Shown one piece after another: positions 2,352 through 17,806 of a stretch of 64,000 nucleotides of DNA. The notes below the pieces were generated by a model, which saw only the letters and a list, made by a program, of their open reading frames with translations, did no database searches and was not told the DNA's origin. The DNA is from Saccharomonospora viridis DSM 43017 (GTDB taxonomy: Bacteria; Actinomycetota; Actinomycetes; Mycobacteriales; Pseudonocardiaceae), in assembly GCF_000023865.1 (NCBI RefSeq), contig NC_013159.1, positions 3,994,001 through 4,058,000 on the forward strand, written 5' to 3'. Each line of letters starts with the position of its first letter. The first letter of the stretch is position 1. The position numbers and the translations under genes are program-made.

Positions 2352-2633
2352 TCAGGAACGCACCAAGCGGGCGATGGCGGCACTGGCCTCACGGACCTTC
2401 TCGTCGGCCCTCTCGCCACCCTCGCTGATCGCCTCGGCGACACAGTGCCGGAGATGCTCTTCCAACAGCCCCAGTGACACGGCTTGGAGCGCCTTGGTCG
2501 CCGCGGCGATCTGCGTGAGTACGTCGATGCAGTATTCGTCGTTTTCGACCATCCGCTGAAGCCCTCGGATCTGTCCTTCGATCCGGCGCAGCCGCTTGAG
2601 GTAGGCGTCCTTGTCGGAGGTGTATCCCGGCAT
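2352..2633 (-). CDS. csoR: CsoR-family copper-sensing repressor
   Basis: A 93-residue all-helical repressor of the CsoR/RcnR family (DUF156). The Cu(I) ligands can be read as a Cys in NDEYCIDV near residue 35 and a His and Cys in EEHLRHCV near residues 60-64, which matches the copper type. I chose the ATG at 2633 because GGGAG lies 8 bases upstream and because the longer frame to 2744 would run through the operator. It should repress its own operon and release DNA when Cu(I) binds. The neighbours copZ and copA support this. Confidence 0.93.
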   Translation of the reverse strand: MPGYTSDKDAYLKRLRRIEGQIRGLQRMVENDEYCIDVLTQIAAATKALQAVSLGLLEEHLRHCVAEAISEGGERADEKVREASAAIARLVRS

Positions 2634-2660
2634 CTTCGCTCCCGTTCCGTCCCACCGCCC

Positions 2661-2682
2661 AATATACCCCCCATGGGTATAT
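2661..2682 (-). promoter_or_regulatory. CsoR operator overlapping the csoR-copZ-copA promoter
   Basis: A perfect inverted repeat with 8-base arms, ATATACCC (2662-2669) and GGGTATAT (2675-2682), and a 5-base spacer. G/C tracts flanked by TATA are the known form of actinobacterial CsoR operators. On the minus strand the left part contains TATATT (2666-2661), a good -10 hexamer about 28 bases before the csoR start, so bound repressor would block polymerase directly. Assignment to CsoR is inferred from position and form. Confidence 0.85.
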
Positions 2683-2795
2683 AAGGCTCCATCCGACTCA
2701 GCGGTCTTACCCCACCTACCTGCTGTCTGCGGTTGATCGATCACGCTAAGTTGGTACTGCGTGACAACACCCCAACTTCCTCAAGGAGCTCGCCC

Positions 2796-3056
2796 ATGCC
2801 CGGTGTGGAAGAGATCCGCGCGGGTATCGCCCTCGCGAACGAGAAGGCTTCCGCCAGCATCGCCGCCCTACAACAAGCCGCCCAGGCACTTGAGGAAGCC
2901 CAACAATCGCTGGCCCAGGCCACCTCGGGCAGCACCCAGGAGGAGATCGCCCAGGCGCACGGCCTGCTCGCCGAGGCTCTCCAGGCGGTGACCGGCACGC
3001 AGAGCACCATCATGGCGTGCATCTCGTCCGCCGAGAGCTACTCGGCCCGGCTGTAG
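2796..3056 (+). CDS. Small helical protein, first gene of the FtsK-like ATPase operon
   Basis: An 86-residue protein of unknown function. It is almost entirely predicted alpha helix, rich in Ala, Gln and Glu, with a likely turn at a Gly-Ser rich point (near residue 50), so it may form a helical hairpin. No signal peptide or membrane segment is seen. The ATG at 2796 is preceded by AAGGAG at 2783-2788. It starts a tight rightward operon with a second small helical protein, an FtsK/SpoIIIE-like ATPase and a coiled-coil protein. Its size and fold recall WXG100 proteins of type VII secretion, but I see no WXG motif, so that link is only suggestive. Confidence 0.8.
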   Translation: MPGVEEIRAGIALANEKASASIAALQQAAQALEEAQQSLAQATSGSTQEEIAQAHGLLAEALQAVTGTQSTIMACISSAESYSARL

Positions 3057-3073
3057 CGCAACGGATACGCGAC

Positions 3074-3319
3074 ATGTCACTGGAGCAGTTGCGGCACCTA
3101 CTCGCCGGAACGCTTGACGCCCTTTCCACCGCCAGATCCCACAACGTCAGGGCGCGTGAGCTACTCGACGACTACCGCCGCGTGGTCACCGAGGTGCAGG
3201 CGCAGGCCCAGCCGTGGCTGCCCAGGGAACTGGACAGCGCCGTAGAACAGATCGAGGCCAACGACGCACGGCTCGACACCGTGTACGGCCTGCTCACCAG
3301 CTACGACTCGAGGTTGTGA
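3074..3319 (+). CDS. Small helical protein, second gene of the FtsK-like ATPase operon
   Basis: An 81-residue helical protein of unknown function, with charged heptad-like segments and no membrane segment or signal. The ATG at 3074 follows the previous stop by 17 bases; a longer in-frame start at 3017 would overlap that gene and is less likely. The stop lies 3 bases before the ATPase start, so translation is probably coupled. Pairs of small helical proteins next to an FtsK-type ATPase are a feature of Esx secretion loci. No WXG motif is present, so the role is unknown. Confidence 0.78.
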   Translation: MSLEQLRHLLAGTLDALSTARSHNVRARELLDDYRRVVTEVQAQAQPWLPRELDSAVEQIEANDARLDTVYGLLTSYDSRL

Positions 3320-3322
3320 AGT

Positions 3323-6088
3323 TTGGCGATGCGACGCAAGGTCGTCCAGCAACGTGCCCGCGTGACGAACGCGCTGGAGGCGCTACGCCATCAGATCGGC
3401 CTGGCCCTCGGTGCCGCCCGTAACGCCCACCGGGCCGCCGAGGACGAACTGGCGCGGTTGCGACTGGAACAACTCGTGGTGTCGGTGGGCCTGGAGAACG
3501 CCGCCACCGACCCACAGGTCGCCGAACACCGCAACGATCCGGCCCTGGCCTCGGTGCTGTCGTGGCTGGAGAACGTGAAGAGCAGCTTCTACGCCGACTG
3601 GGCCGACGGGCCGGAACGACTGCGGCAGCTCGTGGCCTCCGCAGCGCCGGGCCCGGCGGGACGTCCCCCGGGGGAGTGGCTGGGCCGACTCGGCACGTTC
3701 GACGGCACGAAGCCGCCGGAGTTGTGGCGCATCGGATCGGCCACCGTGGACGGCACGAGCATCGGACGTCCGTCGACCACGTTGACCTTCGACGTCGCCG
3801 TCCCCCTGCTGGACGAGTCCCACCTGTCGATCACCTCGGTGCCGAAGAGCCGGGCGACCGTGGACGCGCTCGTGGAGAACCTGTTGATGCGGGTGCTCAG
3901 CACGTTCACCCCCGGCGCGGTGAGGGTGCACCTGTGGGACGTCGGTCAACTCACGGCCATCCTGCCGAACTTCTACGCGCTGAGCCGGACCAGCGCGGTC
4001 ACCGTGCACGACCCGACCAGGCTGGTCGACCTACTCGACGAACTCGCCGGTCACATCCGCCGCATCCACGCCCACACGCTGCAGGCCGGGTATCCGTCGC
4101 TGCCCGCCATGCGACGGGCGACGGGCAAACGCGTGGAACCGTGGCGGATCGCCGTGCTGTACGGCAACGGCGAGGATCTCGCCCCCGAACATCTACGGGA
4201 TCTCAAACGCGTGGCCAGCGGTGCCCTGGCCGCGGGGATCTCACTGATCCTCGTGGACGTGCCCACGGTGTTGGGCGGTTCGGTGGAGACCATCAGCCTG
4301 CTCGACGACCGTCGTGCCATCACCTCGATGACCGGGCCGGACGTCGTCGTCGACCTCGACCCACCACTGCCCGCCGGTCAGGTGGCGAGTGCCGCGAGTC
4401 GCCTCGCCGAGGCCATCGTCACCAGGCAGGGCGGTCCTCGGTCGTTCTTCGACCTGCTGCCCACGGAATTCGGGCAGGAATGCTCGGCCCGCGAGCTACG
4501 CGCGCCCGTCGGCTTCCACGAGGGGGAACCCGTGGAGGTCGTGATCGGTGACACCACCCCGCACGCTCTGATCGGGGGGCCGAGCGGTTCGGGCAAGACG
4601 AACTTCCTCTACGCGCTGCTGGGCAGTCTCACCGCCCGGTACTCACCGGACGAACTGGCGCTGTACCTGCTGGACTTCAAGGAGGGCGTCTCCTTCGCCG
4701 GACTGGCCCCCGGCAAGAAGGACGAAAGCTGGCTGCCGCACGCCCGGCTCATCGGGGTGAACGTCAACACCGACAGGGAGTTCGGGTTGGCGCTTCTGCG
4801 GTTCCTGTCCGACGAGATGCGCCGTCGTTCGGCGGCGGCCAAGGAGTTCGAGGTCACCAACATCGCGGAACTGCGCGAACAGGACCCGGACGGACATTGG
4901 CCCCGGATCGTCGCCGTGATCGACGAGTTCCAGTACCTGTTCGCCGAACGGGATTCGGTGACGGCCATGGCGACGGCGCTGTTGGAGGACCTGGCCCGGC
5001 GAGGTCGGTCACAGGGCATCCACCTCATCCTCGCCAGCCAGGACATCGCGGGCATCGAGGCGTTCTGGGGCAAACCCGCCGTGTTCGAACAGTGCACGTT
5101 GCGCATCGCGATGCCCAAGGCTCGCAGGGTGCTGGCGGAGGCGAACCAGGCCGCGGTGGCCGCACCGCGCTGGCACGCCGTCATCAACCACGAGTCGGGG
5201 GTGGCGCACGGGAACCAACTCGCCCACATCCCCGACGCCAGCGCGAAAAACACGTTCCCCGCACTGCAACGCCAACTGTGGCAGCAGTACGCCACGCACG
5301 GCCGGCCACGACTGTTCGACGGTGCCGTCGCGCCCCGGCTGAGCGAGTCGACGGCCTTCGGCACGCTGGCACCGGGCACCGACCGACCCCGCGCTCTGGT
5401 GGGTCAGTCGATCGAGGTCGCCGACAACGCCCACGGCATCGAGCTGCCGACCGCACCGGGCCGGAACCTCGCGGTCCTGGGCAGCAGCAGGACGGAGGCC
5501 TTGTCCGTACTCGACGCGGCGGCCCGGTCGTTGGCCCGACAGTTCGAGGCGGGTACCGCGGAGTTCCTCCTCGGTTGCGCGGTGGACACCTGTCTCGACG
5601 AGGTGGACGCCCTGGCGAACCTCCTGGCCGAGCACGGGCACAAGGCGGCCGTGGTGACGGCGGCGGAACTGCCCGCACTCTTCGCCGACCTCGCCGAGCG
5701 GATGTCCCATTCGGACGGAAGGACGTTCGTGATGCTGTACGGCGTGGACGCGGTGCTCCCCGCGCTCGAACACAAGGAGCTCGGCAAACCCAGCGGACTC
5801 GACCACCTGCGAACGTTGCTCAAGCAGGGGCCCTCGAAGGGGGTACACGTACTGGGCTGGTGGCGTGGGGTGGCCCGGCTGAAGGACACACTCGGCTTCA
5901 ACGGCACGGAGGACATCGGCGCCTGGGTCGCCCTGGACGTGCAGGGAAGCGAACTCGCACCGTTCTGCGCCGGCCAGGTCGTGCACTGGTCACCGAGGCC
6001 GGGTCGGGCGCTGTTCTTCGACCGCGGCACACACGCGAGTCCGGAGGTCACCATCCCGTTCCATCGACCGGAGGCCGACGATGTATGA
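3323..6088 (+). CDS. FtsK/SpoIIIE-like P-loop ATPase
   Basis: A 921-residue multidomain ATPase of the FtsK/SpoIIIE/EccC superfamily. The intact central domain has a Walker A, GGPSGSGKT, near residues 417-425 and a Walker B, VAVIDEFQ, near 530-537, followed by a RGRSQGIHLILASQ segment typical of the family. The regions before and after look like degenerate copies of the same fold: the C-terminal one has GSSRTEA where a P-loop would be and lacks the lysine. No transmembrane segment is obvious, so it may be soluble or recruited to the membrane by partners. The start is the TTG at 3323, 9 bases after AGG; an ATG at 3329 is the alternative. It overlaps the next gene by 8 bases. It could drive DNA or protein translocation; the substrate is unknown. 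Confidence 0.85.
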   Translation: MAMRRKVVQQRARVTNALEALRHQIGLALGAARNAHRAAEDELARLRLEQLVVSVGLENAATDPQVAEHRNDPALASVLSWLENVKSSFYADWADGPERLRQLVASAAPGPAGRPPGEWLGRLGTFDGTKPPELWRIGSATVDGTSIGRPSTTLTFDVAVPLLDESHLSITSVPKSRATVDALVENLLMRVLSTFTPGAVRVHLWDVGQLTAILPNFYALSRTSAVTVHDPTRLVDLLDELAGHIRRIHAHTLQAGYPSLPAMRRATGKRVEPWRIAVLYGNGEDLAPEHLRDLKRVASGALAAGISLILVDVPTVLGGSVETISLLDDRRAITSMTGPDVVVDLDPPLPAGQVASAASRLAEAIVTRQGGPRSFFDLLPTEFGQECSARELRAPVGFHEGEPVEVVIGDTTPHALIGGPSGSGKTNFLYALLGSLTARYSPDELALYLLDFKEGVSFAGLAPGKKDESWLPHARLIGVNVNTDREFGLALLRFLSDEMRRRSAAAKEFEVTNIAELREQDPDGHWPRIVAVIDEFQYLFAERDSVTAMATALLEDLARRGRSQGIHLILASQDIAGIEAFWGKPAVFEQCTLRIAMPKARRVLAEANQAAVAAPRWHAVINHESGVAHGNQLAHIPDASAKNTFPALQRQLWQQYATHGRPRLFDGAVAPRLSESTAFGTLAPGTDRPRALVGQSIEVADNAHGIELPTAPGRNLAVLGSSRTEALSVLDAAARSLARQFEAGTAEFLLGCAVDTCLDEVDALANLLAEHGHKAAVVTAAELPALFADLAERMSHSDGRTFVMLYGVDAVLPALEHKELGKPSGLDHLRTLLKQGPSKGVHVLGWWRGVARLKDTLGFNGTEDIGAWVALDVQGSELAPFCAGQVVHWSPRPGRALFFDRGTHASPEVTIPFHRPEADDV

Positions 6089-6449
6089 CGAGCCCACGGC
6101 CGCCGTGCGTTACAAGGAGATCATGGGCCTGGCCCGCAAGGCGGCCGAGGACCTGCGCGACTGGGAGCGCAAACGCATCGTCGAACTGGAATCGAAGATC
6201 GCCGAGGCCGACCGGCGACTCGACGCCGCGGCCGAACAGGAAACCGCCGTGCAGGAGCGGGCGCTCCGTTGGTGGCGCATGGCCTGCGACAACGTGGACC
6301 GACTGTCGTGGCTGGAGCCGGGCGAACAACCCTCCCCGATCAACTCGGCCAGAGGTGACCAGGTCGACCACTACGTCGACGGCCTTCGCTCCGCCTACCG
6401 GAACCTGACGGAGGCCGTCGCGAACCTCGGCTGGCGAGCCCGTCGCTAG
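6081..6449 (+). CDS. Coiled-coil protein, last gene of the FtsK-like ATPase operon
   Basis: A 122-residue protein of unknown function. Residues about 10-70 form a continuous charged helix with heptad character, and the remainder is also helical, with a WW pair near residue 65 and WLEPG near residue 77. It has no signal or membrane segment. Its ATG overlaps the stop of the ATPase gene by 8 bases, which indicates translational coupling. It may be a structural partner or adaptor of the ATPase. The gene ends 7 bases from the convergent iniC-like gene, with no room for a separate terminator. Confidence 0.82.
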   Translation: MYDEPTAAVRYKEIMGLARKAAEDLRDWERKRIVELESKIAEADRRLDAAAEQETAVQERALRWWRMACDNVDRLSWLEPGEQPSPINSARGDQVDHYVDGLRSAYRNLTEAVANLGWRARR

Positions 6450-6455
6450 GCGGGT

Positions 6456-7718
6456 TCACGCCATCGGTTCGGTGACGAGGGCCTCGCAGGTTCGGACCAC
6501 TGTCGCGGCCGCATGCCGTTCCGCCGAACCCAGCACCGGGTTCTCCATGTACGACCGCCACAGCCGCAGGACGTTCACGGCGACTTGCCGCAGTCCGGGC
6601 TCCCCCCTGCCGACTCCGAGCCTCACCTGTGGGGCGACGCCGTAGCCGCCGATGAGCCGGATGGCCTCGTCGGCGAGTTCCCCGGGAAGACTCACCCGGC
6701 CCGTGCGCAGCGCGGCGAACAACCGCAGTTCCGCGAATTCGTGCGCACCGGTCAGGGTGCGCTCCCATTCGGCGACCAGCGAAGCGGCGGACGGTCGGGG
6801 CTCCCGGCGCAGCACCACACCCAGGCCGAGCAGCGCCGACCGAGCCTTCAACACGGCGGCCCGCTCGGCGAAGTACACCGTCACCGCCTCACCCAACGCG
6901 TCCAGACCGCTGCGTCGACACAGCTCCGCGGACAACGCTCGCGGCGTGTCGGCTCCCCCTCTGAGCAACGTGGTGGCGAGACGGACGCCGAACAACCCGA
7001 ACCGGTCCAACAGCCTGGCCCGCTCCGGATCGCCACCGAACCGGTCGGCCGACAACAGCAGTGGGTCGAGTTCGGACCTCGGCACCGCCGCGAGCGCGGC
7101 CAGCAATTCGAACTCGTCCTCGCGGATCGTCCGGGCCGCGCGCGCGGTCAGCCCCGAGACCGCGACGACGTCCTGGCACGCTTCCGTGGTCACCGGGTTC
7201 CGCGCCCATCGACGAGCGACCTGGCGGGCCGAGATGAGGGCGTCCACCCGCCCTCCGCCCAGCTCGTCCGCACGTGCCAACACCATGAGCGCGTTCACCG
7301 GCGCGATGTGGCTCACGGCACGGTCCTGCGCCGCGCGTAACAAGGTCAGATCGGCGTCGTGCGGATGCCCCGCCAGGTAGAGCACCGCGTCGGCCTCCGC
7401 GCAGATCAGATCGGCGACGCGCGCGGTTCCGTCCTGCTGGGCCTGCGAGGTGTCGAGGACGAGCAGCTCCGGCCACACCTGGTCGCCCGGTACGTGGTGC
7501 CACGACATCGGCGACGTCCGCCGACCCTCGCCGACCTCCCCCACGAGCGCGGAGACCAGGGTCGTCTTCCCCGTTCCCGGCGCGCCCGCCACGGCCACCC
7601 GCAGCGGCTCCTCCATCCGGGCGAGATGTCGTCTCAGCCAATTCGTCGCCCGCGGGCTGTCCGCGTACACCTGTTGCGCACGAGTCAGCAACGACCAAGC
7701 CCGGTCGGCCAGATTCAT
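6456..7718 (-). CDS. iniC: Dynamin-like GTPase, IniC type
   Basis: A 420-residue GTPase of the bacterial dynamin-like family. The P-loop is GAPGTGKTT at residues 45-53 and a G4-like motif, ARADELGGG, lies near residue 150. It is shorter than mycobacterial IniC (about 490 residues) and has no clear membrane helix. The ATG overlaps the stop of the iniA-like gene by 4 bases, the order seen in the mycobacterial iniBAC operon. In mycobacteria IniA and IniC act in the response to cell-wall inhibitors and IniA remodels membranes; the same role here is inferred from order and motifs. The gene symbol rests on synteny, not on an alignment. Confidence 0.82.
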   Translation of the reverse strand: MNLADRAWSLLTRAQQVYADSPRATNWLRRHLARMEEPLRVAVAGAPGTGKTTLVSALVGEVGEGRRTSPMSWHHVPGDQVWPELLVLDTSQAQQDGTARVADLICAEADAVLYLAGHPHDADLTLLRAAQDRAVSHIAPVNALMVLARADELGGGRVDALISARQVARRWARNPVTTEACQDVVAVSGLTARAARTIREDEFELLAALAAVPRSELDPLLLSADRFGGDPERARLLDRFGLFGVRLATTLLRGGADTPRALSAELCRRSGLDALGEAVTVYFAERAAVLKARSALLGLGVVLRREPRPSAASLVAEWERTLTGAHEFAELRLFAALRTGRVSLPGELADEAIRLIGGYGVAPQVRLGVGRGEPGLRQVAVNVLRLWRSYMENPVLGSAERHAAATVVRTCEALVTEPMA

Positions 7719-9589
7719 GCCGTCAGGCCTCGCGGAACCGGCTGGGGAGCCAGCGCGTCGGCCCGCCGACGCAACAGCTCCAGCTCCTCGACACGGGTCG
7801 CCACTTTCCGCACGGCCGTGTTCCGTTCGGCCGCCTCGGCCTCGATAGCCTGTTTCACCCGCTGGGCCGCGTCACTGATCTCCGTGCGCAGTTCGTGCGC
7901 CACGGCCGTGCACCGGTCACGCAGCTCCCGGTGGATCAGCCGTACGGTGTCCTTGCTCTCCTTGCCGTAGGCGAGGAAGAAGTCGTCGACGTATCGCTGG
8001 GCGGCCGTCTTCGCCGCGGCCTGGCGCCGTTTGAGTCGGGTACTGCGTTCGTCCAGGACACTTTTGGCGCCGAACGCCACCCCCGCACCGATCGAGATGG
8101 GGTTGATGAGACTCATCCCGGCCAACGTCGTCGCGAGCCCGAACATCAACAACCCACTGTACGAACCACGCATACCGACGAAGAGTTTCTGCCCGACCGT
8201 GAACCGCTCGACGTTCGGTGCGCCCAGTTTGTCCAACTCCCCGGCCGGTGGGTCGGACAGCACCGAATCCGGCGCGAACACGTCGTCCCGGCGGGGGGAG
8301 ATGGCGTTCGCGAGCTTACGCGTGATCCACTCGAACCTGTCGAGCAACCAACCGGAATTGGCCTCGGCCGCGGCCCGCAGGTTCTCCCGGAGCCATTCCT
8401 CGAATTCCGGCCAGTCCTTGGCGGGGTCGGCGACCTCGAAGTACTCGTCCGCCTCCCGCAGGATGCGACGGGTTCGGTCACGCAGGTCGTAGTCGAGGTC
8501 GGCGGTGAGGTCGGCCACCTCATCGGACAGCATGGTCTGCCACCGCGCCGACTCCCGTTGCAGTTGCTCCAACCGGGACGTCAGGCGACGGTAACGTGCG
8601 ACGAGTCCACCGTCGCCGCCCTGCTTCAGGTCGTTGAGCCGCTCCCGCAGCGGCTCCACCAGGGTGTCCACGGTCAGCCGGGTCAACGCACCCGCGCAAC
8701 GGCGACGCAGCACGTCGGCGTTGCCCATCAACTCGTGGTGCAGGTAGGAGATCAGGGCGGGGAAGCCCGACTCGTCGTTCAGCCCGGTGTCGTTCGTCCG
8801 CGCGGCCAACAACCGCAAGGCCGATGACACCGGAAACACCGTCACGGGCAGCCCCCGACGTTCGAGCCGGGCACGGTTGTGCGCGACCACCCGTTGCCAC
8901 CCCGGCACCAGGTCGGTCTTGGTGAGGACGACGGCCACCGTCGGACACACGGTCAACGCCCGCTCCACGATGTCCAGTTCCGCGGGCGAGAAACTGCGAG
9001 TCGCATCGCTGGCCAGCAGTACGGCGTCGGCCTGCGACACGGTCGACAGCGCGGCCCGGGCGTGGTCGCCGTGGTGGTCGCCGTCCGTGCCGCAGGGTGG
9101 CGTGTCGATCAGGGTCAGTCCACTTTCGAGAAGTTTGCGAGGAAGTCCTATTTCGACCCTCGCTATCCCGTTGCGACGATTCCCCTCCGCCGAGGCCGAC
9201 TCGACCGGAACGGGTTCGCGTTCAGCGCTCGTCAACGCGGGAGTGTCGTGTCCGGACGCCTCGAGCAACAGACTGTCCCGCAGCACCGGTTCCAGCAGTG
9301 GAGCCGGATCACCCGGGACGAGTCTCGCCACGGGCGAGGGCGCGTACTCGACCACGGTGGGTACGGTCGTGGTGAGGTCGTCGCCCACCGCGCACACGGT
9401 GGACCCGAGCAGACCGTTGAGCAACTGGCTCTTGCCCTGTCCCGATCCGCCGAGCACGACGACGCGGATCTTGGGACCCGCCAGCTCGGCACGGCGGGCA
9501 CGCAGGAGCCGTCCGAGGTCGGTGCGGTCGTGCACGGCGCACGACCGGATGGCCTCGTCCAATACGTCGAGCCACGGCGTTGCCTTCAT
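7715..9589 (-). CDS. iniA: Dynamin-like GTPase, IniA type
   Basis: A 624-residue dynamin-like GTPase, close to the 640 residues of mycobacterial IniA. G-motifs are readable: the P-loop GGSGQGKS near residues 47-54, a G3-like segment LIDTPPCG near 167, and the G4 motif TKTD near 225. A hydrophobic segment around residues 450-490 (LLMFGLATTLAGMSL and following) can serve as the membrane paddle. Helical stalk regions flank it. It probably binds the inner face of the cytoplasmic membrane and remodels or repairs it in a GTP-dependent way. It lies 95 bases after the iniB-like gene, with a strong hairpin between, and overlaps the iniC-like gene by 4 bases. Confidence 0.88.
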   Translation of the reverse strand: MKATPWLDVLDEAIRSCAVHDRTDLGRLLRARRAELAGPKIRVVVLGGSGQGKSQLLNGLLGSTVCAVGDDLTTTVPTVVEYAPSPVARLVPGDPAPLLEPVLRDSLLLEASGHDTPALTSAEREPVPVESASAEGNRRNGIARVEIGLPRKLLESGLTLIDTPPCGTDGDHHGDHARAALSTVSQADAVLLASDATRSFSPAELDIVERALTVCPTVAVVLTKTDLVPGWQRVVAHNRARLERRGLPVTVFPVSSALRLLAARTNDTGLNDESGFPALISYLHHELMGNADVLRRRCAGALTRLTVDTLVEPLRERLNDLKQGGDGGLVARYRRLTSRLEQLQRESARWQTMLSDEVADLTADLDYDLRDRTRRILREADEYFEVADPAKDWPEFEEWLRENLRAAAEANSGWLLDRFEWITRKLANAISPRRDDVFAPDSVLSDPPAGELDKLGAPNVERFTVGQKLFVGMRGSYSGLLMFGLATTLAGMSLINPISIGAGVAFGAKSVLDERSTRLKRRQAAAKTAAQRYVDDFFLAYGKESKDTVRLIHRELRDRCTAVAHELRTEISDAAQRVKQAIEAEAAERNTAVRKVATRVEELELLRRRADALAPQPVPRGLTA

Positions 9590-9624
9590 CGCTCGGACAG
9601 TGTGCCTGGTTCCACCTACGCAGT

Positions 9625-9661
9625 ACAGGCCGGGCTCGTAATATCACCGAGCCCGGCCTGT
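9625..9661 (-). terminator. Strong intercistronic hairpin between the iniB- and iniA-like genes
   Basis: A perfect 14-base-pair stem (arms 9625-9638 and 9648-9661) with a 9-base loop, lying between the iniB-like stop and the iniA-like start. No run of T follows on either strand, so it is not a canonical intrinsic terminator. In a leftward operon it could be a partial terminator or RNA stabiliser that makes more of the iniB product than of the two GTPases. Confidence 0.7.
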
Positions 9662-9684
9662 TACTTGATCGATATTACCCGGAG

Positions 9685-10971
9685 TCAGTGTCCGAGGTCG
9701 AAATCGCTGATGCCGGAGCCTCCGGAGAGCAGATCTTCGCCCTTCTCGGCGATGCCTCCCAGGGGGCTGCCACTGACCGTGTCGGCCATGCGCGCGGTCT
9801 CCTCGAAACCGTGCACGACATCCCCCATGGGCTGCGGCAGCGGGTTCGCCACCGGCAGCTCCGGCAGGTCCGCACCGAGCTGATCGGACACCGAGCTCAG
9901 GTTCTCCCGCACGTCGGACGCCAGGTCCTGCACCGCACCGCCCACATTCGACAGACCACCGTCGAGTTCGGTCGTCCGCACCGCCTCATCGACCTGCGGC
10001 AGAGCGCTCGGCTCCTCGGACAGCACCTGCTCGTCCACGGCCGGCACTTCGGCCGGAGCCGGCGCCGTCTGGGCGGGCGCCTCGACGGGGACGTCGGCCG
10101 GCACCTGCGGGACCTCCATGGCCGGCTGTTCGACGGCGGAACGGGCGACCTCGGGCAGAGCGACGCCCTCGGATGCCACGTAGCTGGCGACCGCGCCGGC
10201 CGTGAACTCACTGCTGCGTGTGAGCGTGTCGGCGTCGAGGGTGTCCGCCTGGACACTCACCGGGCCCATCTCGACCTCGTCGAGTGTCGGCGTACCCGAG
10301 AACTCGAAGCCGTAGTTACCGAGCGGCGTCTCGGACGAGCCGCCCAGGACCAGCTTGTCCTCGGACACGGCGGTGGTGGCCTCGGTGCTGATCGAGTCGG
10401 TGCGCAGCCCCACGCCGCCGCTGAAGGCCTCCGTGTTGGCCGTGCCGAGCAGAGCCGCGTCCAGGTGCTCGGATTCGACGAACCCCTTACCGGACGCGAC
10501 GTCGTGGCCGAGGGTGCCGCCGACGGCGACCCCACCGGCCTCCGAGTGCAGACTCGTCATGCCGGTCAGGTCCTGGCCGGTGTCGGCCCTACCGGCGCCC
10601 GCGGACTCGGCCACGCTCTTCAGCCGTTCGATGGCACCCGCCAGGTCGTTGGAAATACCCTGCAGGTCGTCGGAGAGTCCCAGGTCGGTGTTCACCAGGC
10701 CGCCCCTGGACACCACGTGTTCACCGGAGTCCACGGCGAACAGCAACACGTCCTGCACGTCCTCGGCCGTGATGTCGTCCAACCCCGCCGACTCCAACGT
10801 CCCCGCCGGGTCCTGCGCGAAGGCTTCCCGCGCGGACGCGTCGTACAGCAGGTTCAGCACGAAGTCGTGCAGCGTCTGCTCCTGCGGGACGGCGTTCACG
10901 GACTCGGGAACTGCGGGTTCGGAAACGGCGGCCCCGTGCTGCGGCTCCGGCTCCCCCTGTGTGCGCATCAA
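9685..10971 (-). CDS. iniB: IniB-like acidic low-complexity protein
   Basis: A 428-residue acidic protein. Residues about 27-80 (TLHDFVLNLLYD, then AGLDDITAEDVQDVLLF) resemble the short N-terminal domain of mycobacterial IniB. The rest is low-complexity, rich in Ala, Gly, Val, Glu and Pro with degenerate repeats, and ends in ISDFDLGH, like the IniB tail. No signal peptide or membrane helix is seen. The start is TTG at 10971, 8 bases after GGAGG, with an ATG immediately after it. It is the first gene of the leftward iniBAC-type operon. Its molecular function is unknown even in mycobacteria; it may form a scaffold for the dynamin-like partners. Confidence 0.82.
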   Translation of the reverse strand: MMRTQGEPEPQHGAAVSEPAVPESVNAVPQEQTLHDFVLNLLYDASAREAFAQDPAGTLESAGLDDITAEDVQDVLLFAVDSGEHVVSRGGLVNTDLGLSDDLQGISNDLAGAIERLKSVAESAGAGRADTGQDLTGMTSLHSEAGGVAVGGTLGHDVASGKGFVESEHLDAALLGTANTEAFSGGVGLRTDSISTEATTAVSEDKLVLGGSSETPLGNYGFEFSGTPTLDEVEMGPVSVQADTLDADTLTRSSEFTAGAVASYVASEGVALPEVARSAVEQPAMEVPQVPADVPVEAPAQTAPAPAEVPAVDEQVLSEEPSALPQVDEAVRTTELDGGLSNVGGAVQDLASDVRENLSSVSDQLGADLPELPVANPLPQPMGDVVHGFEETARMADTVSGSPLGGIAEKGEDLLSGGSGISDFDLGH

Positions 10972-11069
10972 GGTTCTTCCCTCCAGTCAGGCATACGTCC
11001 GTTGTCGGCATTCATCGCCGCGCGCGACGGCGAGCCCGACGCTAGGGACGACACCGCCGCGTGGGCATC

Positions 11070-11128
11070 GGGGAAGAGCCCGAGTTCTTCCCCACTCAAG
11101 GCGGCGGCCGCGTTAGGGGCTTTAGGGG
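11070..11128. promoter_or_regulatory. Inverted and direct repeats in the ini divergent promoter region
   Basis: The 286-base gap between the iniB-like gene (leftward) and the Hsp70-like gene (rightward) contains a perfect inverted repeat with arms GGGGAAGA (11070-11077) and TCTTCCCC (11086-11093). It also holds a direct repeat TTAGGGG at 11113-11119 and 11122-11128, spaced 9 bases. These are candidate binding sites for the LuxR-type regulator encoded at 12598-15108. The assignment is inference from position. Confidence 0.5.
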
Positions 11129-11257
11129 ATAGGCCGAACAGCCGATTCGGGGATGTCATCCGGACGTATGACTTTGGTACGAAAGGATGCACCGTTTTCG
11201 ACCGGGGCGTTCCGCGCCGGAAGAGATCACCGTGACCGTCGTGAGGAAGCGTTACGT

Positions 11258-12598
11258 ATGCGCTATGTCCTGGGGATACATCTCGGCGCGACCCGCGTGA
11301 CCGCAGCCGTGTGTCGTCATCGCCGAGGCCGGTGGGAACAGGCCGAGGTGGTCCCCCTCGGACCCACCACCCCCTGGACGGACTCCGTGCTGCACGTGTC
11401 CGCCCACGGTGACCTCCTCGTGGGACAAGCCGCGCTGCGACACGCCGCCACAGAACCCGAACGGGTGGCCAGAGCCCCGTTGCACCGTACCGGTGATCCG
11501 GTTCCGTTCGTGCTCGGTGACACGACCTATCCCGCCGAGACGTTGGCCGCCGGGATGATCGGTTGGGTGGCCGACCGCGTCGCCGAGGTCGAGACCGCCC
11601 ACGCCGAACGCATCGTCGTGACACACCCTCCGGGCTGGTCGGCCTACCGCAGAGGACTGCTGCACCAGGCACTCGACGCCGCCGAACTCCCCGGCGTACT
11701 GGCCCTGCCCAGTCCGATCGCGGCCGCCGAGAACCACTTCGCCCGCCAGCAAGTCGAGGACGTCGAACCGGGACGACTGCTGGCGGTGTGCCTCATCGGC
11801 GGCGTGCATGTCGAAACGGCCTTGCTCCGCAGGTCGCCACTCGGTCTCGAGTTGCTGGCACACGAGGGGTCCGACGAACACGAGGCGGGCTGTCGCTTGG
11901 ACGACTTGTTGGTGCGGCACGTCGCGGAACGCACCGAGACGGACACCGGTGATCCTTTCGCGATGAGCCGATTACGCGCGGCGTGTATCGCGGCGAAGGA
12001 ACGGTTGTCGACGACACCGGAGGTGTTCGTCACCGACACCGTGTCGGTGACCCGGCAGGAGTTCGAGGAACTGGCCAGGCCGGTGTTGGAGGTCGCGATC
12101 GGGAGATTGCGCCGGCTGACTTCCCGGGTCCCCTCCGAACAGCTCGCCGCGGCCCTTATGGCCGGAGGAAGCGCACGCATCCCCCTTGTCTCCGCGCTGG
12201 CTCGCACTATGCTCCCGTGCCCCGTCGTGGTCGACGACGACCCGGGCACGGCCCTGTGTCGGGGCGCGGCCTTGTCGGCACGCCCGAGGCCTCGAAACCC
12301 CCGGCCGACCCAGGACTCCAAGTCCAAGATGGACCAAGCGAGCGGGTCGGACATGGCGGACATGATGGACACAATGGACACACTGATCTCGACGGACGCC
12401 GTGAAAGCATGGCCGGCGAAGGAAGCGAACTCACTCGACGTACCCATAGGCTATGGCTCGGACGTCTCCTCGTTCGACGACGAGGAACCACCACCGCAAC
12501 GACCCCCCGTGAAGATCACGCCGTTGCAGCCACCCCGCCGTCGGTTCGCGTTGGCCCGCAAGAGCAACTCGACCGATGACCGAGACGAGGAGCGCTGA
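11258..12598 (+). CDS. Hsp70-like actin-fold ATPase in the ini locus
   Basis: A 446-residue protein with an Hsp70/actin-like nucleotide-binding fold. The phosphate-1 loop reads GIHLGATRV near residue 6 (compare GIDLGTT in DnaK), a phosphate-2 stretch CLIGGVHVE lies near 175, and an adenosine-type motif AGGSARIPLV lies near 305. There is no DnaK substrate-binding domain; instead about 100 C-terminal residues are low-complexity, with several Met-Asp repeats near 365-375 and a Pro-rich basic tail. I chose the ATG at 11258 because GAGGAAG lies 8 bases upstream. Its stop overlaps the regulator's ATG (TGATG). It may act as a nucleotide-dependent sensor or chaperone for the regulator or the ini proteins. 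Confidence 0.8.
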   Translation: MRYVLGIHLGATRVTAAVCRHRRGRWEQAEVVPLGPTTPWTDSVLHVSAHGDLLVGQAALRHAATEPERVARAPLHRTGDPVPFVLGDTTYPAETLAAGMIGWVADRVAEVETAHAERIVVTHPPGWSAYRRGLLHQALDAAELPGVLALPSPIAAAENHFARQQVEDVEPGRLLAVCLIGGVHVETALLRRSPLGLELLAHEGSDEHEAGCRLDDLLVRHVAERTETDTGDPFAMSRLRAACIAAKERLSTTPEVFVTDTVSVTRQEFEELARPVLEVAIGRLRRLTSRVPSEQLAAALMAGGSARIPLVSALARTMLPCPVVVDDDPGTALCRGAALSARPRPRNPRPTQDSKSKMDQASGSDMADMMDTMDTLISTDAVKAWPAKEANSLDVPIGYGSDVSSFDDEEPPPQRPPVKITPLQPPRRRFALARKSNSTDDRDEER

Positions 12599-15108
12599 TG
12601 CCGCGTACGGGCACCGACGCCACCGAGTCACCACGTCCAGCGGCCCCACGTCCCCCGCGACTTTCCTCGACGAGTCCGGAACCGCTTCTCGACGAACCCA
12701 CCCGGGAACTGTGCGCGAACATCGCCCGGGGCACGCTCGCGCCCGCGCGACTGGCCGTCGTCGCCCCCGGCGGGCACGGCAAGACCGCCGTACTGCACCA
12801 CCTCGCACGTCGCTGCGAACGACACGGGACCACCGTGTCGTGGTTCGGCCAGGACGACGATGCCGCGGACCTCGTGCTCGTCGACGACGCCCACACCCTC
12901 CCCGACGCCGCCTTGGCCGAACTGCACGCACTGGCCGAAGACGAGACCAGGGGGCTGGTGGTCGCCGCCCGACCGTGGCCCCGCCCCACGACACTGAACG
13001 CCGTGCTGTCCCGACTGCGGGGACAGGTGGTACTGCGCCCCCTCGACCGCCGCAGGATCGCGGCCCTGCTCGGACGGGAGCGCGCGGCGTTGGCCGAATT
13101 CGTGCACGCCCAGACCCTGGGCATCCCCGGGTTCGCCGTGCGACTCGCCACCGCCTTCGGCAAGGCGGGCGACCCGCCGCGGGATTCGACGGACCTGCCC
13201 GCGTCAGTACTCGCGGAGTTCCGCCCCGACCTCGACGGACTCACCGGGGAGGCGCTGTCACTCCTGCTCGCGGCCGTCTCCGGGGCAGGCCCCGATGTCG
13301 ATCTGCTGGCCGGATTGCTCGACACGGACCGCCACGGTGTCGCGCGCGCCATCGACGCGGTCAGGGCCTGTGGGCTGCTGGACCACGACGGCACCCCGTT
13401 ACCGCTGGTGGCCCACGCGGTGAAGGCCCTGGTGCCCAGCGAACAGCGGTTGGCGGTGTCGCAGCGGCTGGTCCGGCTGCAACTCGACCGCAAGGGACCC
13501 GTGCTCAACCTGGTCCTTCCGCTTCTGGGCAGCGGACTCAGCGGCGCCGAACCGGCCCAGGCGTTCGAGGCCGCCGCCGACGAGGCCGCCGAGTCGGACC
13601 CGGCGCTGGCCGCGAAGTTGTATTCGGCCGCGGCCAGCGCGGGACGGTCGGAACGGGCGCTGGGACGTCGCTGGGCCGAGGCCGCCGCGCGCGCCGGGGA
13701 CCTGGACACCGCTTTGCGTCTGGCCGACCAGGTGCTCACCGACCCCGAGGCCGAGGGACGTGCCGACGCCGCGAGCACCGCCGCCACCGCTTGTGTCTAC
13801 AAAGGTCAGTTGGATCGCGCCGGGGAACTGTACCTGTGGGCGGACACCCAGCCGGCCCGGGTGCATGCCGCCTTGGTGTCGCTCCAGCAGGGAAAGCTCG
13901 ACAAGGCCACGGAACTGTTGGCCGCTCAGCCCTCCGATGCCCCTCCCACGCTGTTCGCCGGTGCGATGTCGGCGCTGGTCCGCGGCGTGATCCAATCGGT
14001 GACCGAGGACCCCACGACCGCTTTGTCCACATTGGCCGATTCTGCCGAAATGCTGGAACCCGTGGGACGCTCGCTGTTCCTTCCCGACACCCCCGCCGCC
14101 GTCGGTGCCTTGGTCGGGATGCACTGCGGTGAGCTGTCCCTCGCCCGGTCGCTGCTGGAACGCGCCGTGGACACCGAGGTCGGAGGTCTGGCCGGACGCA
14201 CCCGGCACCTGCTGCTGTCGGCCTGGATCTCCATGCTGACCGGGGACACGGACACGGCCACACGCACCCTCCAGCGGGCCGGCGACCGACTGAGCCCCCG
14301 GGACGAGCTGTTCGCCATCGCCCTGCGCATCGGGGTGGCCCGCAGGACCGGCGACTCGGCCCGCCTGCGCACGCTGTGGGCCGAGGCACGCGAAACCGTC
14401 ATCCGGCTGCGGGCCGACCTGTTCACGATCATGCCGTTCGGTGAGCTGGCGGTCGTGGCCGCACGAGTCGGAGAGCACGATCGCCTCACCCACCACCTCG
14501 ACCGCGTCCGGAGACTGCTGCACGCGCTCGGCGACCCACCACTGTGGACGGCCATGGCGCACTGGTCCGGCTTGCACGCCGCGATCGCGGCCGACCGGAG
14601 GGACGAGGTGGCCGAACACGCGCGAGCCCTGACCGGCTGGGACGGATACAGCTCCTTCCACAAAGCCATGGCCGAGGCGGCCGCATGCTGGCTCGACACC
14701 CTGAACGGGAACGTCCGGGCCGACCGCGTGGAATCGGCGGCCACCCGACTGCACGCCGTGGGGCTGCGCTGGGACGCCGCGCGGTTGGCGGGTCAGGCCG
14801 CCATCCGCACCACCGACCGGACGGCCATGGTGACGCTGCTGGAACGCGCACGGACGTTGCAAGGCCCCTCCTCCACGAGTGACCAGCGGCAACCGACGGC
14901 CTCACCGGGTGAGGCCGTCCTCAGCGAACGGGAACGCCAGGTGGCCGAATTGGTGGTGTCGGGCCTGACCTACCGACAGATCGGTGACCGGCTGTTCATC
15001 TCCGCCAAAACCGTCGAACACCACATGGCCCGCATGCGGCAGCGGCTCGGCGCCACCAGCCGGCCCGACCTGCTGGCTCGGCTACGCACACTCGTCACGA
15101 CGGGCTGA
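12598..15108 (+). CDS. Large LuxR-type (STAND/AAA+-like) regulator, IniR-like
   Basis: An 836-residue transcription regulator. The N-terminal P-loop domain has a Walker A, APGGHGKTA, near residue 57 and a Walker B, LVLVDDAH, near 93. The middle is a long Ala/Leu-rich helical repeat region (TPR-like) and the last 65 residues are a LuxR-type HTH (LSERERQVAELV, then KTVEHHMARM). This layout and length match the mycobacterial regulator IniR (Rv0339c), which sits beside and controls iniBAC. It probably senses a small molecule or envelope stress and activates the divergent ini promoter. It is translationally coupled to the Hsp70-like gene and overlaps the convergent next gene by 14 bases. Confidence 0.85.
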   Translation: MPRTGTDATESPRPAAPRPPRLSSTSPEPLLDEPTRELCANIARGTLAPARLAVVAPGGHGKTAVLHHLARRCERHGTTVSWFGQDDDAADLVLVDDAHTLPDAALAELHALAEDETRGLVVAARPWPRPTTLNAVLSRLRGQVVLRPLDRRRIAALLGRERAALAEFVHAQTLGIPGFAVRLATAFGKAGDPPRDSTDLPASVLAEFRPDLDGLTGEALSLLLAAVSGAGPDVDLLAGLLDTDRHGVARAIDAVRACGLLDHDGTPLPLVAHAVKALVPSEQRLAVSQRLVRLQLDRKGPVLNLVLPLLGSGLSGAEPAQAFEAAADEAAESDPALAAKLYSAAASAGRSERALGRRWAEAAARAGDLDTALRLADQVLTDPEAEGRADAASTAATACVYKGQLDRAGELYLWADTQPARVHAALVSLQQGKLDKATELLAAQPSDAPPTLFAGAMSALVRGVIQSVTEDPTTALSTLADSAEMLEPVGRSLFLPDTPAAVGALVGMHCGELSLARSLLERAVDTEVGGLAGRTRHLLLSAWISMLTGDTDTATRTLQRAGDRLSPRDELFAIALRIGVARRTGDSARLRTLWAEARETVIRLRADLFTIMPFGELAVVAARVGEHDRLTHHLDRVRRLLHALGDPPLWTAMAHWSGLHAAIAADRRDEVAEHARALTGWDGYSSFHKAMAEAAACWLDTLNGNVRADRVESAATRLHAVGLRWDAARLAGQAAIRTTDRTAMVTLLERARTLQGPSSTSDQRQPTASPGEAVLSERERQVAELVVSGLTYRQIGDRLFISAKTVEHHMARMRQRLGATSRPDLLARLRTLVTTG

Positions 15109-17806
15109 CGCGTCGGTCCACGGTCCGGTCGGTCGCCGCGCGCCACTCGATGTACCCGCCCTGGAAGTCGTTCCTGCGACCGCCGGTCACGGAGTACTCG
15201 CTGGACACCGGGTAGCCGAGATACGAACGCTCCCACCCCAGCGAGGCCCAGTGCCGGCGGATCGCGCCGTAGACGGCGTGCGCCCCGGTCCGTGGCGTCC
15301 AGTAGACGGAGCCACCCTTGCTGAAGTGGTTGTAACGACCGATGCCGTCCGGGGTCCGGCTCTCATCCGTGGTCGGGTAACCCAGCGGTCCGCGCTCCCA
15401 GCGCAGAGCCGCCCAGCGTTTCCGGATCTCACCCCAGACGGCGTGCGCGCCCGTCTCCGGGGTCCAGTACACGGAGACGGCCCGCGTGTAGGGCGTACCG
15501 AGGAAGTGGTTGAACCGGCCCCGGCCGTCGGGGGTCACGGTCTGGTCGGTGGTGGGTGGGCCGAACCTCTTGTGGCCGCCGAGTTCCACGTATTTCTCCG
15601 CGATCGGACCGTGCACCTCGTGCGTCCCCGTCCCGGCCGACCAGTACAACCGCCCGTCGGCGTGTTCGCGGTAGTACACATCACCGTCGATCACCACGGG
15701 GCCGGTCGGTTCGCCCAGGATGTCCCGCAGTCCCGGCTCGTTCGCGTACCGCTGTTCCACGGGCGTGGCGTACAGCGCGGTGAGGGTGAACTCCTCGTCC
15801 GGCATCGTGAACGTGTGCGTACGTTCCGAGGCGCCGTTCTCCCACGCGGAGAACACCGACTCGCCGTCGGCGGCCGTCCCCGCGGCGGCCACACTCACCG
15901 TGGCACCCGCGGTGACCATGGCCGTACCGCCCCTGGTCGAGGTGTCGCCGTCCCCTTCGCTCGCGATCTCCACGGCGGCGGGGACATTGCTCGACAACGT
16001 CAGCCGATGCTCGCGCGGTAACGCCGTGAAGGTGTAGGAACTGGACACTCCTTCGCTGTCCGTGGCCGTGGCCGTCAGTTCCATGTGCGAGTCGGGGTGA
16101 TCGGTGAACGGGACGGAGAACCTCGTGCCCTCACCCGACTCCGAGGGGTGGGAGTGGCAGGTGGCGTCCTCGGGACAGTGCACCACCGTGGCCTGCCAGC
16201 TCACGTCGAGCAAACCGTCCTCGTCGTCCTCGGCCCACACGCTCACCGACACCGTCTCACCCACCGCGTAGGTGCGGTCCTCCTCTGTTCGGGCCCGCAG
16301 CCGCGGGGTGTGGTTACCCGGGACCACGGTGACCTCGGCGGTCCCACTCGCGCCGGCCGCATCGGTGACGGTGAGCGTGGCGGTGAAACGCTCCTCGGAG
16401 GAGTCGTAGACGTGCTCGACCCGCTTACCCGTGTCGGAGGTCCCGTCGCCGAAATCCCAGTGGTAGGTCAACGGGTCGCCGTCGAAGTCGAAGGACTCAC
16501 CCCCGTCGAACGTCACCGTGCGGGTCTCGGGATCGGTCTCCAGGCTCACCTTCGCGACGGGCCGCTGGTTACCGGGTGTGTACGTGAGCCGCTTCAGCTT
16601 CCCCGACCCGATGTCGGCGAACACGATGTCGCCGTTGGCCGCGGTGTCGAACTTCACCGGCCTCCCGATGTGCGTGCCCAGCGGGGGGCTCTCGGGGGAC
16701 CGGACCAGTCTGCCCTGGTCGTCGTAGCGGAGTGACCACAGCTTCTGGTGGGTGTAGTCACCGAAGAAGTACGCACCCCGGTATTCCTCCGGATAACTGG
16801 TGCCCGTGTAGACGACGCCACCGGTGACGCTGTTGGCCGAGTCGACGTCCCGGCCGTGGCGGAACTGCACCAACGGAGCCGTGTTCGGCGCGTCCTCGCA
16901 CTCGGGCAGCTCCCGGTACCCGGGGGTGCCTTCGGTGCCTTCCCAACACGGCCAACCGTAGTCCCGGCCGGGTTGCACGAGGTTGATCTCCTCCCACCGG
17001 TTCCAGCCGACGTCCCCGAGGATCGGCAATCCACTGCGAGGGTCGAGCGACAGCCGGAAGGGGCTGCGGAACCCACTCGCGAAGATCTTGCTGCGGGCGG
17101 AGTCCGGATCGGCCGGATCGTAGAAGGGATTCCCCGGCACACCCCGACCGTCGGCGGTGAGGTGCAGGACCTTGCCTTGGAGCGCGTACGGTTTCTGGGC
17201 CCGCAGGGCACGCGCGTCCACCTCGGTGTAGCTGGCGACGTCACCGATCGACACCCAGATGGTGCCGTCCTCGTCGGCCACGATGCCGGTGATGCCGTGC
17301 ACGTTGGCGTCCCCCGGCAGCCGCAGCAGTTCCGTCTCGTTCGTCAACCCCGTCGGTTCCGGGGAACCCGTGACCTCCCACCGGGCCAGGGTCAGGTCGT
17401 AGGAGCCGCCGCCCGTGGGGACCGACCGTGCGAGGTAGATGTGGCGCGACGTCTCGTAGTCGGAGGCGACGGCGAGGCCGACGAGCCCCATGTCCTGCTG
17501 TGACTCCACGGACAGACTGCGGAGGACGCGGCTGTGTCCGTCGGTCGAGACCCAGGCGACCTTCCCCGTCTTGCCGGTGGTGAGGACGCTGCCGTCCGGC
17601 AGGTACGCGAAATCGGTCAAATCCCCCGGCGACTGTCCACTCGGCGATTCCCGAAGCGCGAATCCCTCGGGTACCCGGGGTTCCTCGGCCAGGGCGGCGC
17701 CGCTGCCCACGGTCGTCGCGAACACGGTGACAAGGCTCGCCGCCAGGGCCGTCGAGGCGACGACGGCCGCCAAACGTGAGAACGGACGGTTTCGACCAGA
17801 ACACAT
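15095..17806 (-). CDS. Secreted sorbosone/glucose dehydrogenase-like protein with PKD and LGFP repeats
   Basis: A 903-residue secreted protein. Residues 1-42 are a signal peptide (basic start, hydrophobic core, AALAEE cleavage region). Residues about 45-400 are a six-bladed propeller of the glucose/sorbosone dehydrogenase type, with propeller segments such as GDVGWNRWEEI and GRDYGWPCWEG. Residues about 405-500 are a PKD domain (YHWDFGDGTSDTG), followed by an Ig-like stretch and, from about 690, at least three LGFP repeats. LGFP repeats are thought to help anchor proteins in the envelope of mycolate bacteria. It probably oxidises a sugar with a PQQ-type cofactor outside the cell; the substrate is unknown. 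The start is rightmost, at 17806. Confidence 0.85.
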   Translation of the reverse strand: MCSGRNRPFSRLAAVVASTALAASLVTVFATTVGSGAALAEEPRVPEGFALRESPSGQSPGDLTDFAYLPDGSVLTTGKTGKVAWVSTDGHSRVLRSLSVESQQDMGLVGLAVASDYETSRHIYLARSVPTGGGSYDLTLARWEVTGSPEPTGLTNETELLRLPGDANVHGITGIVADEDGTIWVSIGDVASYTEVDARALRAQKPYALQGKVLHLTADGRGVPGNPFYDPADPDSARSKIFASGFRSPFRLSLDPRSGLPILGDVGWNRWEEINLVQPGRDYGWPCWEGTEGTPGYRELPECEDAPNTAPLVQFRHGRDVDSANSVTGGVVYTGTSYPEEYRGAYFFGDYTHQKLWSLRYDDQGRLVRSPESPPLGTHIGRPVKFDTAANGDIVFADIGSGKLKRLTYTPGNQRPVAKVSLETDPETRTVTFDGGESFDFDGDPLTYHWDFGDGTSDTGKRVEHVYDSSEERFTATLTVTDAAGASGTAEVTVVPGNHTPRLRARTEEDRTYAVGETVSVSVWAEDDEDGLLDVSWQATVVHCPEDATCHSHPSESGEGTRFSVPFTDHPDSHMELTATATDSEGVSSSYTFTALPREHRLTLSSNVPAAVEIASEGDGDTSTRGGTAMVTAGATVSVAAAGTAADGESVFSAWENGASERTHTFTMPDEEFTLTALYATPVEQRYANEPGLRDILGEPTGPVVIDGDVYYREHADGRLYWSAGTGTHEVHGPIAEKYVELGGHKRFGPPTTDQTVTPDGRGRFNHFLGTPYTRAVSVYWTPETGAHAVWGEIRKRWAALRWERGPLGYPTTDESRTPDGIGRYNHFSKGGSVYWTPRTGAHAVYGAIRRHWASLGWERSYLGYPVSSEYSVTGGRRNDFQGGYIEWRAATDRTVDRRVSPS

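Follow-up and report, generated by a model that had tools for sequence, protein, structure and literature searches.

The closest described counterpart of the locus considered here, which lies in a 64,000-nucleotide stretch of the 4.3-Mb genome of Saccharomonospora viridis DSM 43017 (hereafter the window, whose positions serve as coordinates throughout), is the mycobacterial iniBAC system with its regulator IniR. In that system the genes run in the order iniB-iniA-iniC, a regulator of MalT-like architecture is encoded divergently, and the fold of IniA is known (PDB: 6j72); all three features recur in the window. The part of the study of Boot et al. 2017 on which we draw (PMC5760070) describes the function of IniR in Mycobacterium tuberculosis and M. 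marinum. It reports, from chromatin immunoprecipitation sequencing (ChIP-seq, in M. tuberculosis) and RNA-seq, that IniR occupies DNA upstream of iniBAC, its sole regulatory target. The same text records that trehalose activates iniBAC, leaves binding of trehalose by IniR to future work, gives no operator sequence, and mentions in a single sentence a dnaK-like gene beside the iniR of M. smegmatis. A literature search, mostly at the level of titles and the beginnings of abstracts, recovered nothing on this ini-associated Hsp70-like protein beyond Boot et al. The conserved, degraded Hsp70 domain described below, encoded in coupling with the regulator, is a concrete candidate for the input that would relay envelope damage to IniR. 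A second system for comparison is provided by the Hsp70-domain-only proteins of actinobacterial GTPase-centered systems (Kaur et al. 2020, PMC7159879). In the portion of that work used here, GAP1-N2 and other domains serve to define their neighborhoods, which are put forward as conflict systems; unlike the window, with its ini dynamins, the main text of that paper does not use the word "dynamin".

Our principal observation is a five-gene ini module, in which iniB-iniA-iniC diverge from an Hsp70-like and an iniR-like gene, and which is conserved in Pseudonocardiaceae, Micromonospora and mycobacteria. A first-pass annotation of the stretch had joined these five genes to a neighboring FtsK-like operon as a single nine-gene envelope-stress machine. 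All nine genes were found at the positions it gave (Table 1), and its recognition of iniB-, iniA- and iniC-like genes in the mycobacterial order was borne out. Residues 8-600 of the window IniA match the solved M. smegmatis IniA (6j72, E 9.1e-101), marking it as an IniA-family dynamin, and the N-terminal domain of IniB exceeds its curated cut-off (NF038175, 59.7 bits vs 40). IniC is identified by weak P-loop hits, its position beside IniA and its clustering with IniA proteins. The LuxR-type protein, which had been called IniR-sized, indeed matches the IniR model over its whole length (NF038181), but because its 427 bits fall below the curated cut-off of 750 we class it as IniR-like. In this score, and in the Hsp70-like gene that lies ahead of iniR and runs into the iniR start, the window departs from the mycobacterial system.

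The association of the Hsp70-like gene with ini was approached from both sides. An Hsp70 alignment query gathered 80 named loci, 63 of them with room on both sides. IniA, IniC, IniB and IniR surround the Hsp70-like gene in 61 of these 63, a figure that, coming from an Hsp70 query, is silent on how often ini occurs without Hsp70. With IniA as the starting point, we used one set of 120 genomes of the family for all queries (E below about 1e-40 for IniA-like proteins). An IniA-like protein is present in 95 of them, and the Hsp70-like gene lies within 8 kb of iniA in at least 86 of these 95; of the nine genomes not so listed, three (G015, G050 and G100) have one on closer look. Among 97 fetched IniA loci, which were chosen and not random, an IniC-type gene adjoins IniA in 94 (one of the three exceptions is cut by a contig end) and a divergent Hsp70-like gene is present at 85. 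The full five-gene set occurs in 4/4 loci of Micromonosporaceae (family f15) and in 5/10 loci of family f8, which is taken as mycobacterial because the IniA of its locus L077 scores 1039 bits against that of M. smegmatis. Pairwise protein distances compared in 28 family genomes correlate at 0.92 for IniA-IniC, 0.92 for IniA-Hsp70, 0.86 for Hsp70-IniC and 0.80 for IniA-FtsK; the IniA-Hsp70 value is 0.78 with FtsK distance held constant. The earlier suggestion that the Hsp70-like/IniR pair belongs with iniBAC is thus upheld by gene neighborhood and by co-inheritance. When the candidate iniR start closest to the Hsp70-like stop was taken at each of 47 loci, the two shared 4 or 1 nt at 29 of them (in the window, 1 nt); choosing the closest start biases this count toward overlap.

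The Hsp70-like protein was analyzed from 11261, one codon inside its ATG at 11258. It matches PF00012 (9.6e-14; 50.9 bits vs a cut-off of 20.6), its nucleotide-binding domain is modeled by AlphaFold2 (AF2) mostly at a predicted local distance difference test score (pLDDT) of 93-98, and the nearest Foldseek match of the model is DnaK (1.5e-24). Although it shares the nucleotide-binding-domain fold of Hsp70/DnaK, it differs from these chaperones in three respects: 1) No substrate-binding domain was found in the window protein, the PF00012 match stopping at 372 of 599 and the tail being mostly below pLDDT 60. 2) At the tested catalytic positions, Hsc70 D10, K71, E175 and D199, it has H, L, S and L. 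3) Its tail carries an RPPVxITPL motif, which sits outside the Hsp70 profile match. What is new here, as judged from sequence, is an ini Hsp70-like protein without a substrate-binding domain and, in most cases, without the ATPase residues. The first-pass annotation had envisaged an actin-fold sensor; an ATP-driven version of that idea has to be revised, the tested catalytic residues being lost in the window's clade.

The loss of catalytic residues accompanies coupling to the regulator. K71, the least certain of the aligned columns though one whose context can be read in almost every row, is kept in only 3 of 62 Hsp70-like proteins encoded next to iniR (lost in 59), as against 11 of 15 others with a regulator hit (lost in 4). 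These 15 uncoupled loci comprise ten in which a clear regulator lies on the side of iniC, nine of them keeping K71; one with the regulator beyond Hsp70 on the other strand (L121); three with weak-scoring regulators (L116, L119 and L135); and one that is cut (L027). Eight further Hsp70 loci without a regulator hit (four intact, four not, several reaching the end of the stretch or contig) were excluded from the count. An initial formulation, that an intact Hsp70 signifies absence of IniR, was rejected, most intact loci carrying an IniR-like gene, and was restated in terms of coupled and uncoupled loci. The glycine of the adenosine motif is kept in 37/37 family rows. In the tree, five intact ini Hsp70s group with DnaK and with the Hsp70s linked to FtsK-like genes (all four residues kept in 5/5), away from the degenerate ini forms. 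Three f8 loci (L077, L080 and L094) have two degenerate Hsp70-like genes, one on each side of iniR, and L077, L081, L082 and L094 also contain within the stretch a DnaK-like Hsp70 with all four residues intact.

The tails of these proteins vary along similar lines. In 18/18 proteins with the four residues intact, a transmembrane helix is predicted after the domain (19-residue hydropathy 1.94-2.91, the call being a simple hydropathy cut of 1.6 with no trained predictor), and the tail beyond it is mostly P/T- or G-rich. The window's clade has no such helix and a conserved RPPVxITPL motif instead. Among 84 tails, 47 have the helix alone, 33 the motif alone, three both and one neither; the motif family is thus found in 36, and its columns are conserved in a 27-row alignment that includes helix-tailed forms. 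In the AF2 model of the window protein the motif residues (411-420) form a block of pLDDT 79, raised above the mostly disordered tail. Ratios of nonsynonymous to synonymous substitution (dN/dS) in four within-genus pairs are 0.25-0.30 for the Hsp70-like gene, 0.22-0.32 for IniC, 0.17-0.22 for IniA and 0.13-0.16 for FtsK, values indicating that the Hsp70-like gene is still under selection.

The divergent promoter region contains a predicted operator, a direct repeat of TTAGGGG conserved in all five Saccharomonospora loci aligned. The tight pattern TTAGGGGN(0-3)TTAGGGG has a single match in the genome, at the repeat itself. Across the 120 genomes it has 41 matches, 34 at ini loci and seven elsewhere, against 15 for a reversed control pattern. 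With the pattern loosened to two copies of TAGGGG within 30 nt, a pair is found in 53 of 85 ini divergent regions, the shuffled mean being 0.1 and the largest shuffled count 1; such pairs occur in 5/5 coupled f8, 38/52 coupled family and 5/15 uncoupled family loci. We infer from these sequence patterns that IniR may bind the TTAGGGG repeats, which constitute a testable predicted operator. Two further elements lie in this region: GGGCATCGGGGA, with similar forms in related divergent regions, and the imperfect palindrome CTTTGGTACGAAAG, which has one window match vs 0 expected and, as examined at ini regions, is present in relaxed form at 11 of 62 coupled loci.

Table 1. Features of the S. viridis DSM 43017 locus (window positions)
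Feature	Position	Strand	Remark
Small helical protein A	2796-3056	+	separate FtsK-like operon
Small helical protein B	3074-3319	+	separate FtsK-like operon
FtsK/SpoIIIE, EccC-like ATPase	3329-6088	+	PF01580 6.4e-23
Coiled-coil protein	6081-6449	+	judged coiled-coil by eye; no hit in Pfam
Four-gene FtsK-like operon, not in ini module	2796-6449	+	
iniC-like dynamin-type GTPase, 420 aa	6456-7718	-	4-nt overlap with iniA; weak P-loop hits
iniA-like dynamin, 624 aa	7715-9589	-	PF00350 1.2e-11
iniB-like protein, 428 aa	9685-10971	-	IniB N-terminal domain
Conserved GGGCATCGGGGA	11063-11074	+	identical in 5/5 Saccharomonospora loci aligned
Direct repeat TTAGGGGCTTTAGGGGAT, predicted IniR operator	11113-11130	+	TTAGGGG repeats
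Imperfect palindrome CTTTGGTACGAAAG	11172-11185	+	exact in 3/5 aligned loci
Hsp70-like predicted pseudo-ATPase, 446 aa	11258-12598	+	nucleotide-binding domain only, tail mostly disordered
C-terminal motif RPPVKITPLQPP of Hsp70-like protein	12500-12535	+	RPPVxITPL family
iniR-like STAND/LuxR regulator, 836 aa	12598-15108	+	start overlaps Hsp70-like stop by 1 nt

Taken together, we favor, by a modest measure, a reading in which the window holds a five-gene ini envelope-stress module with a putative pseudo-ATPase partner of IniR and/or the dynamins, the FtsK-like operon being separate. A five-gene ini module with a degenerate Hsp70 partner and a predicted operator is, in our opinion, the finding worth following. 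Under this scenario IniR, as a MalT-like regulator acting on direct repeats, would occupy the TTAGGGG repeats and fire both arms of the shared promoter region, and the ini locus would therefore control itself. The Hsp70-like protein would be a nucleotide-binding pseudo-ATPase rather than a chaperone, and its partner would be IniR, which it might hold or license, and/or the dynamin pair. Its probable ancestor is an Hsp70 domain that was competent as an ATPase, anchored in the membrane and equipped with an extracytoplasmic tail; such a form would still be encoded in paralogous dynamin loci, where the regulator usually lies at the opposite end. The RPPVxITPL motif would have replaced the anchor in the window's clade. 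The more specific proposal, that this Hsp70 lineage passed from an anchored ATPase to a soluble pseudo-ATPase sensor subunit of IniR, an actin-fold non-chaperone receptor eliciting the dynamin response through the TTAGGGG operator, is tentative and, in its full form, rather unlikely.

Several observations weigh against the module as just described, or against its sensor arm. The five-gene set is incomplete at half (5/10) of the f8 loci, with the Hsp70-like gene absent or not found at four; since, in addition, Boot et al. note the dnaK-like gene in M. smegmatis only, that gene may be dispensable. The distance correlations of IniR are moderate (0.59 with Hsp70, 0.55 with IniA, two of the IniR sequences containing Ns), and a direct partnership with IniR is therefore no better supported than one with the dynamins. 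As to catalysis, L069, L130 and L131 are coupled yet intact, L064 and L135 uncoupled yet lost. Beside Hsp70, the only regulator at L119 (lost) and at L116 (kept) is one that scores weakly, and L027 (lost) owes its place among the uncoupled loci solely to the end of the fetched stretch, which falls within its regulator. Coupling and K71 loss each change four times on the tree, so that the counts lack phylogenetic independence; testing the related IniR and K71 traits by independent pairs, with only two to three pairs, gave no significance. Residue loss is, moreover, no proof of lost hydrolysis. With regard to the operator, the tight form is at ini in only 34 of the 95 IniA genomes and the looser pair is missing, by its definition, from 32 of the 85 divergent regions, while HpoR is reported, in the part of that work used here, to bind the BCG iniBAC promoter at a different palindrome (PMC13413693).

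Among the alternatives, the one that survives best has the Hsp70-like protein acting on the dynamins and not on IniR, as an actin-fold scaffold or clamp that would set the assembly of IniA/IniC at the membrane. Hsp70 distances follow those of IniA and IniC more closely than those of IniR, and there are loci in which the dynamin pair accompanies an intact Hsp70 while the regulator lies elsewhere or was not seen within the stretch. A membrane anchor is predicted for the intact form, and IniA by itself is reported to have low scission activity in vitro, with help from IniC suspected (PMC6715688). On the other hand, the Hsp70-like gene is in line with iniR and not with iniAC, its stop usually overlaps the candidate iniR start, and catalytic loss accompanies iniR coupling. 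We regard this alternative as a real though minority possibility.

The first-pass annotation's proposal of a single nine-gene envelope-stress machine, with an FtsK-like motor cooperating with the dynamins and the Hsp70-like protein, fared far worse and is in our view very improbable. An FtsK-like protein (E up to 1e-40) is present in 94 of the 120 genomes; both proteins occur in 76, FtsK alone in 18, ini alone in 19 and neither in seven. The co-occurrence above expectation that the annotation had proposed to look for is thus not seen in these genomes (odds ratio 1.56, Fisher p=0.42). The two genes lie within 20 kb of each other in 26 of the 76 genomes with both, which speaks for a link, but are not near in the other 50: in 22 they are 81 kb to 5.6 Mb apart on the same contig, and in 28 on separate contigs, some of which may conceal proximity at contig ends. 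Across the order (150 genomes, E threshold 1e-40) FtsK-like proteins occur in 45 genomes and IniA in 39, and no FtsK-like protein was found in the 11 IniA-bearing f8 genomes at this threshold. Micromonospora (f15) has up to three FtsK-like copies, sited away from ini. Nor was a TTAGGGG element found upstream of the FtsK operon in any of 47 regions, 17 of them near ini. Distant FtsK relatives do adjoin Hsp70 genes of their own, but these Hsp70s are the intact ones that group with DnaK; FtsK itself appears in 2 of the 63 named Hsp70 loci, where 8-kb flanks are too short for the count to weigh.

The adjacency has its own history. On an FtsK tree of 47 rows it requires two changes, so that proximity arose in two separate clades. 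In one (Saccharomonospora, Prauserella, Qaidamihabitans and Amycolatopsis arida) ini is downstream of FtsK, tail to tail; in the other it is upstream, co-directional and 8.5-16 kb away, the two arrangements accounting for 11 and six rows respectively. In the window only 6 bp separate the stop codons of the two blocks, but called genes intervene in 9 of the 10 relatives fetched with this tail-to-tail arrangement, the FtsK-IniA distance there being 4 to 11 kb. Three genera (g33, g16 and g26) keep genes of the same chromosomal context (f14, f23 and f30, with f20 in two) beside FtsK with no ini between, a pattern that would fit a later insertion of the ini block. Elsewhere the usual neighbors of the operon are other genes. 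By our own arithmetic, a chance landing within 16 kb on either side in a 7-Mb genome has a frequency of about 0.5% per move, and two origins would be unusual under uniform placement; because the loci are only about 80-420 kb apart in several genera, chance is nevertheless a possible source of the adjacency. The annotation had allowed that adjacency confined to this lineage would signify chance, and the picture found is largely of that kind, with two clades in place of one. On the distribution, distance and operator tests together, the nine-gene unit was rejected as regards its FtsK arm. The survey argues against counting the operon as part of ini, and the region looks like two neighboring independent modules.

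That the Hsp70-like gene is merely a decaying remnant of an ancestral chaperone gene is the least probable alternative of all, for although catalytic residues and membrane anchor were lost repeatedly and the gene is absent or not found at some f8 loci, its dN/dS, its conserved tail motif and its persistence near iniA speak against it.

The FtsK/EccC-like operon looks like a separate system. Besides its Pfam match, the ATPase shows an FtsK-type motor by Foldseek (4nh0, 7.5e-32). Its model has a mean pLDDT of 84.8 and, because the predicted template modeling score (pTM) is 0.59, unsure domain placement. The model begins with a helical region at the N terminus, followed by a domain resembling the EccC DUF (8rin_B: Z 15.6, 4.3 A, 230 aligned), the FtsK/EccC motor (2iut_A: Z 28.3, 2.7 A, 273 aligned) and then another domain of ATPase-like fold (6j19_A: Z 21.2, 3.1 A, 229 aligned); as a whole it fits EccC loosely (4nh0_A: Z 24.7, 8.3 A, 715 aligned). 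The DUF-like, motor and C-terminal domains thus resemble type VII EccC/EssC structures. In contrast to EccC, which has three ATPase-type domains after the DUF, the window protein has two, and its score is far below the EccC cut-off (TIGR03924, 87.8 bits vs 509). No N-terminal transmembrane helices were found in it, the N terminus being a predicted long helical region; its top 19-residue hydropathy (1.81, at residue 299) falls on a helix and strand of the modeled DUF-like domain. Two helical proteins of about 85 aa are encoded before it, and our guess is that it is a protein-handling ATPase. A defence function was considered and set aside, PADLOC giving only generic ATPase/GTPase matches (LeoBC 2.9e-13 to IniA, SspH 2.9e-18 to FtsK).

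Distant FtsK/EccC-like relatives in three other families (L106-L110) lie beside a catalytically intact Hsp70 (about 4000-15000 in each), possibly an undescribed Hsp70-FtsK system. L106 has a TPR protein and L110 only a weak TPR match, and both have helical-looking proteins of about 85 aa. At L026-L055, a protein cluster of 17 members (also labeled f8) is often directly upstream of the FtsK operon; the one member tested has no Pfam hit. In the window, a CsoR-like gene recognized by eye (2352-2744, minus strand) is divergent to the FtsK operon. A sequence resembling a palindrome, ATATACCC...GGGTATAT, lies upstream at about 2663-2683, and the protein cluster of the CsoR-like gene has one other member among the fetched loci. 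At the other end, convergent with iniR, 15095-17806 (minus strand) encodes a protein bearing glucose/sorbosone dehydrogenase, PKD and LGFP repeat regions, whose cluster has five members among the compared loci. Elsewhere in the same genome (L112, about 4.232-4.236 Mb) there is a second dynamin pair, distant from IniA/IniC and with no Hsp70-like or iniR hit in its 20-kb stretch, which we presume may be of the DynA/DynB kind.

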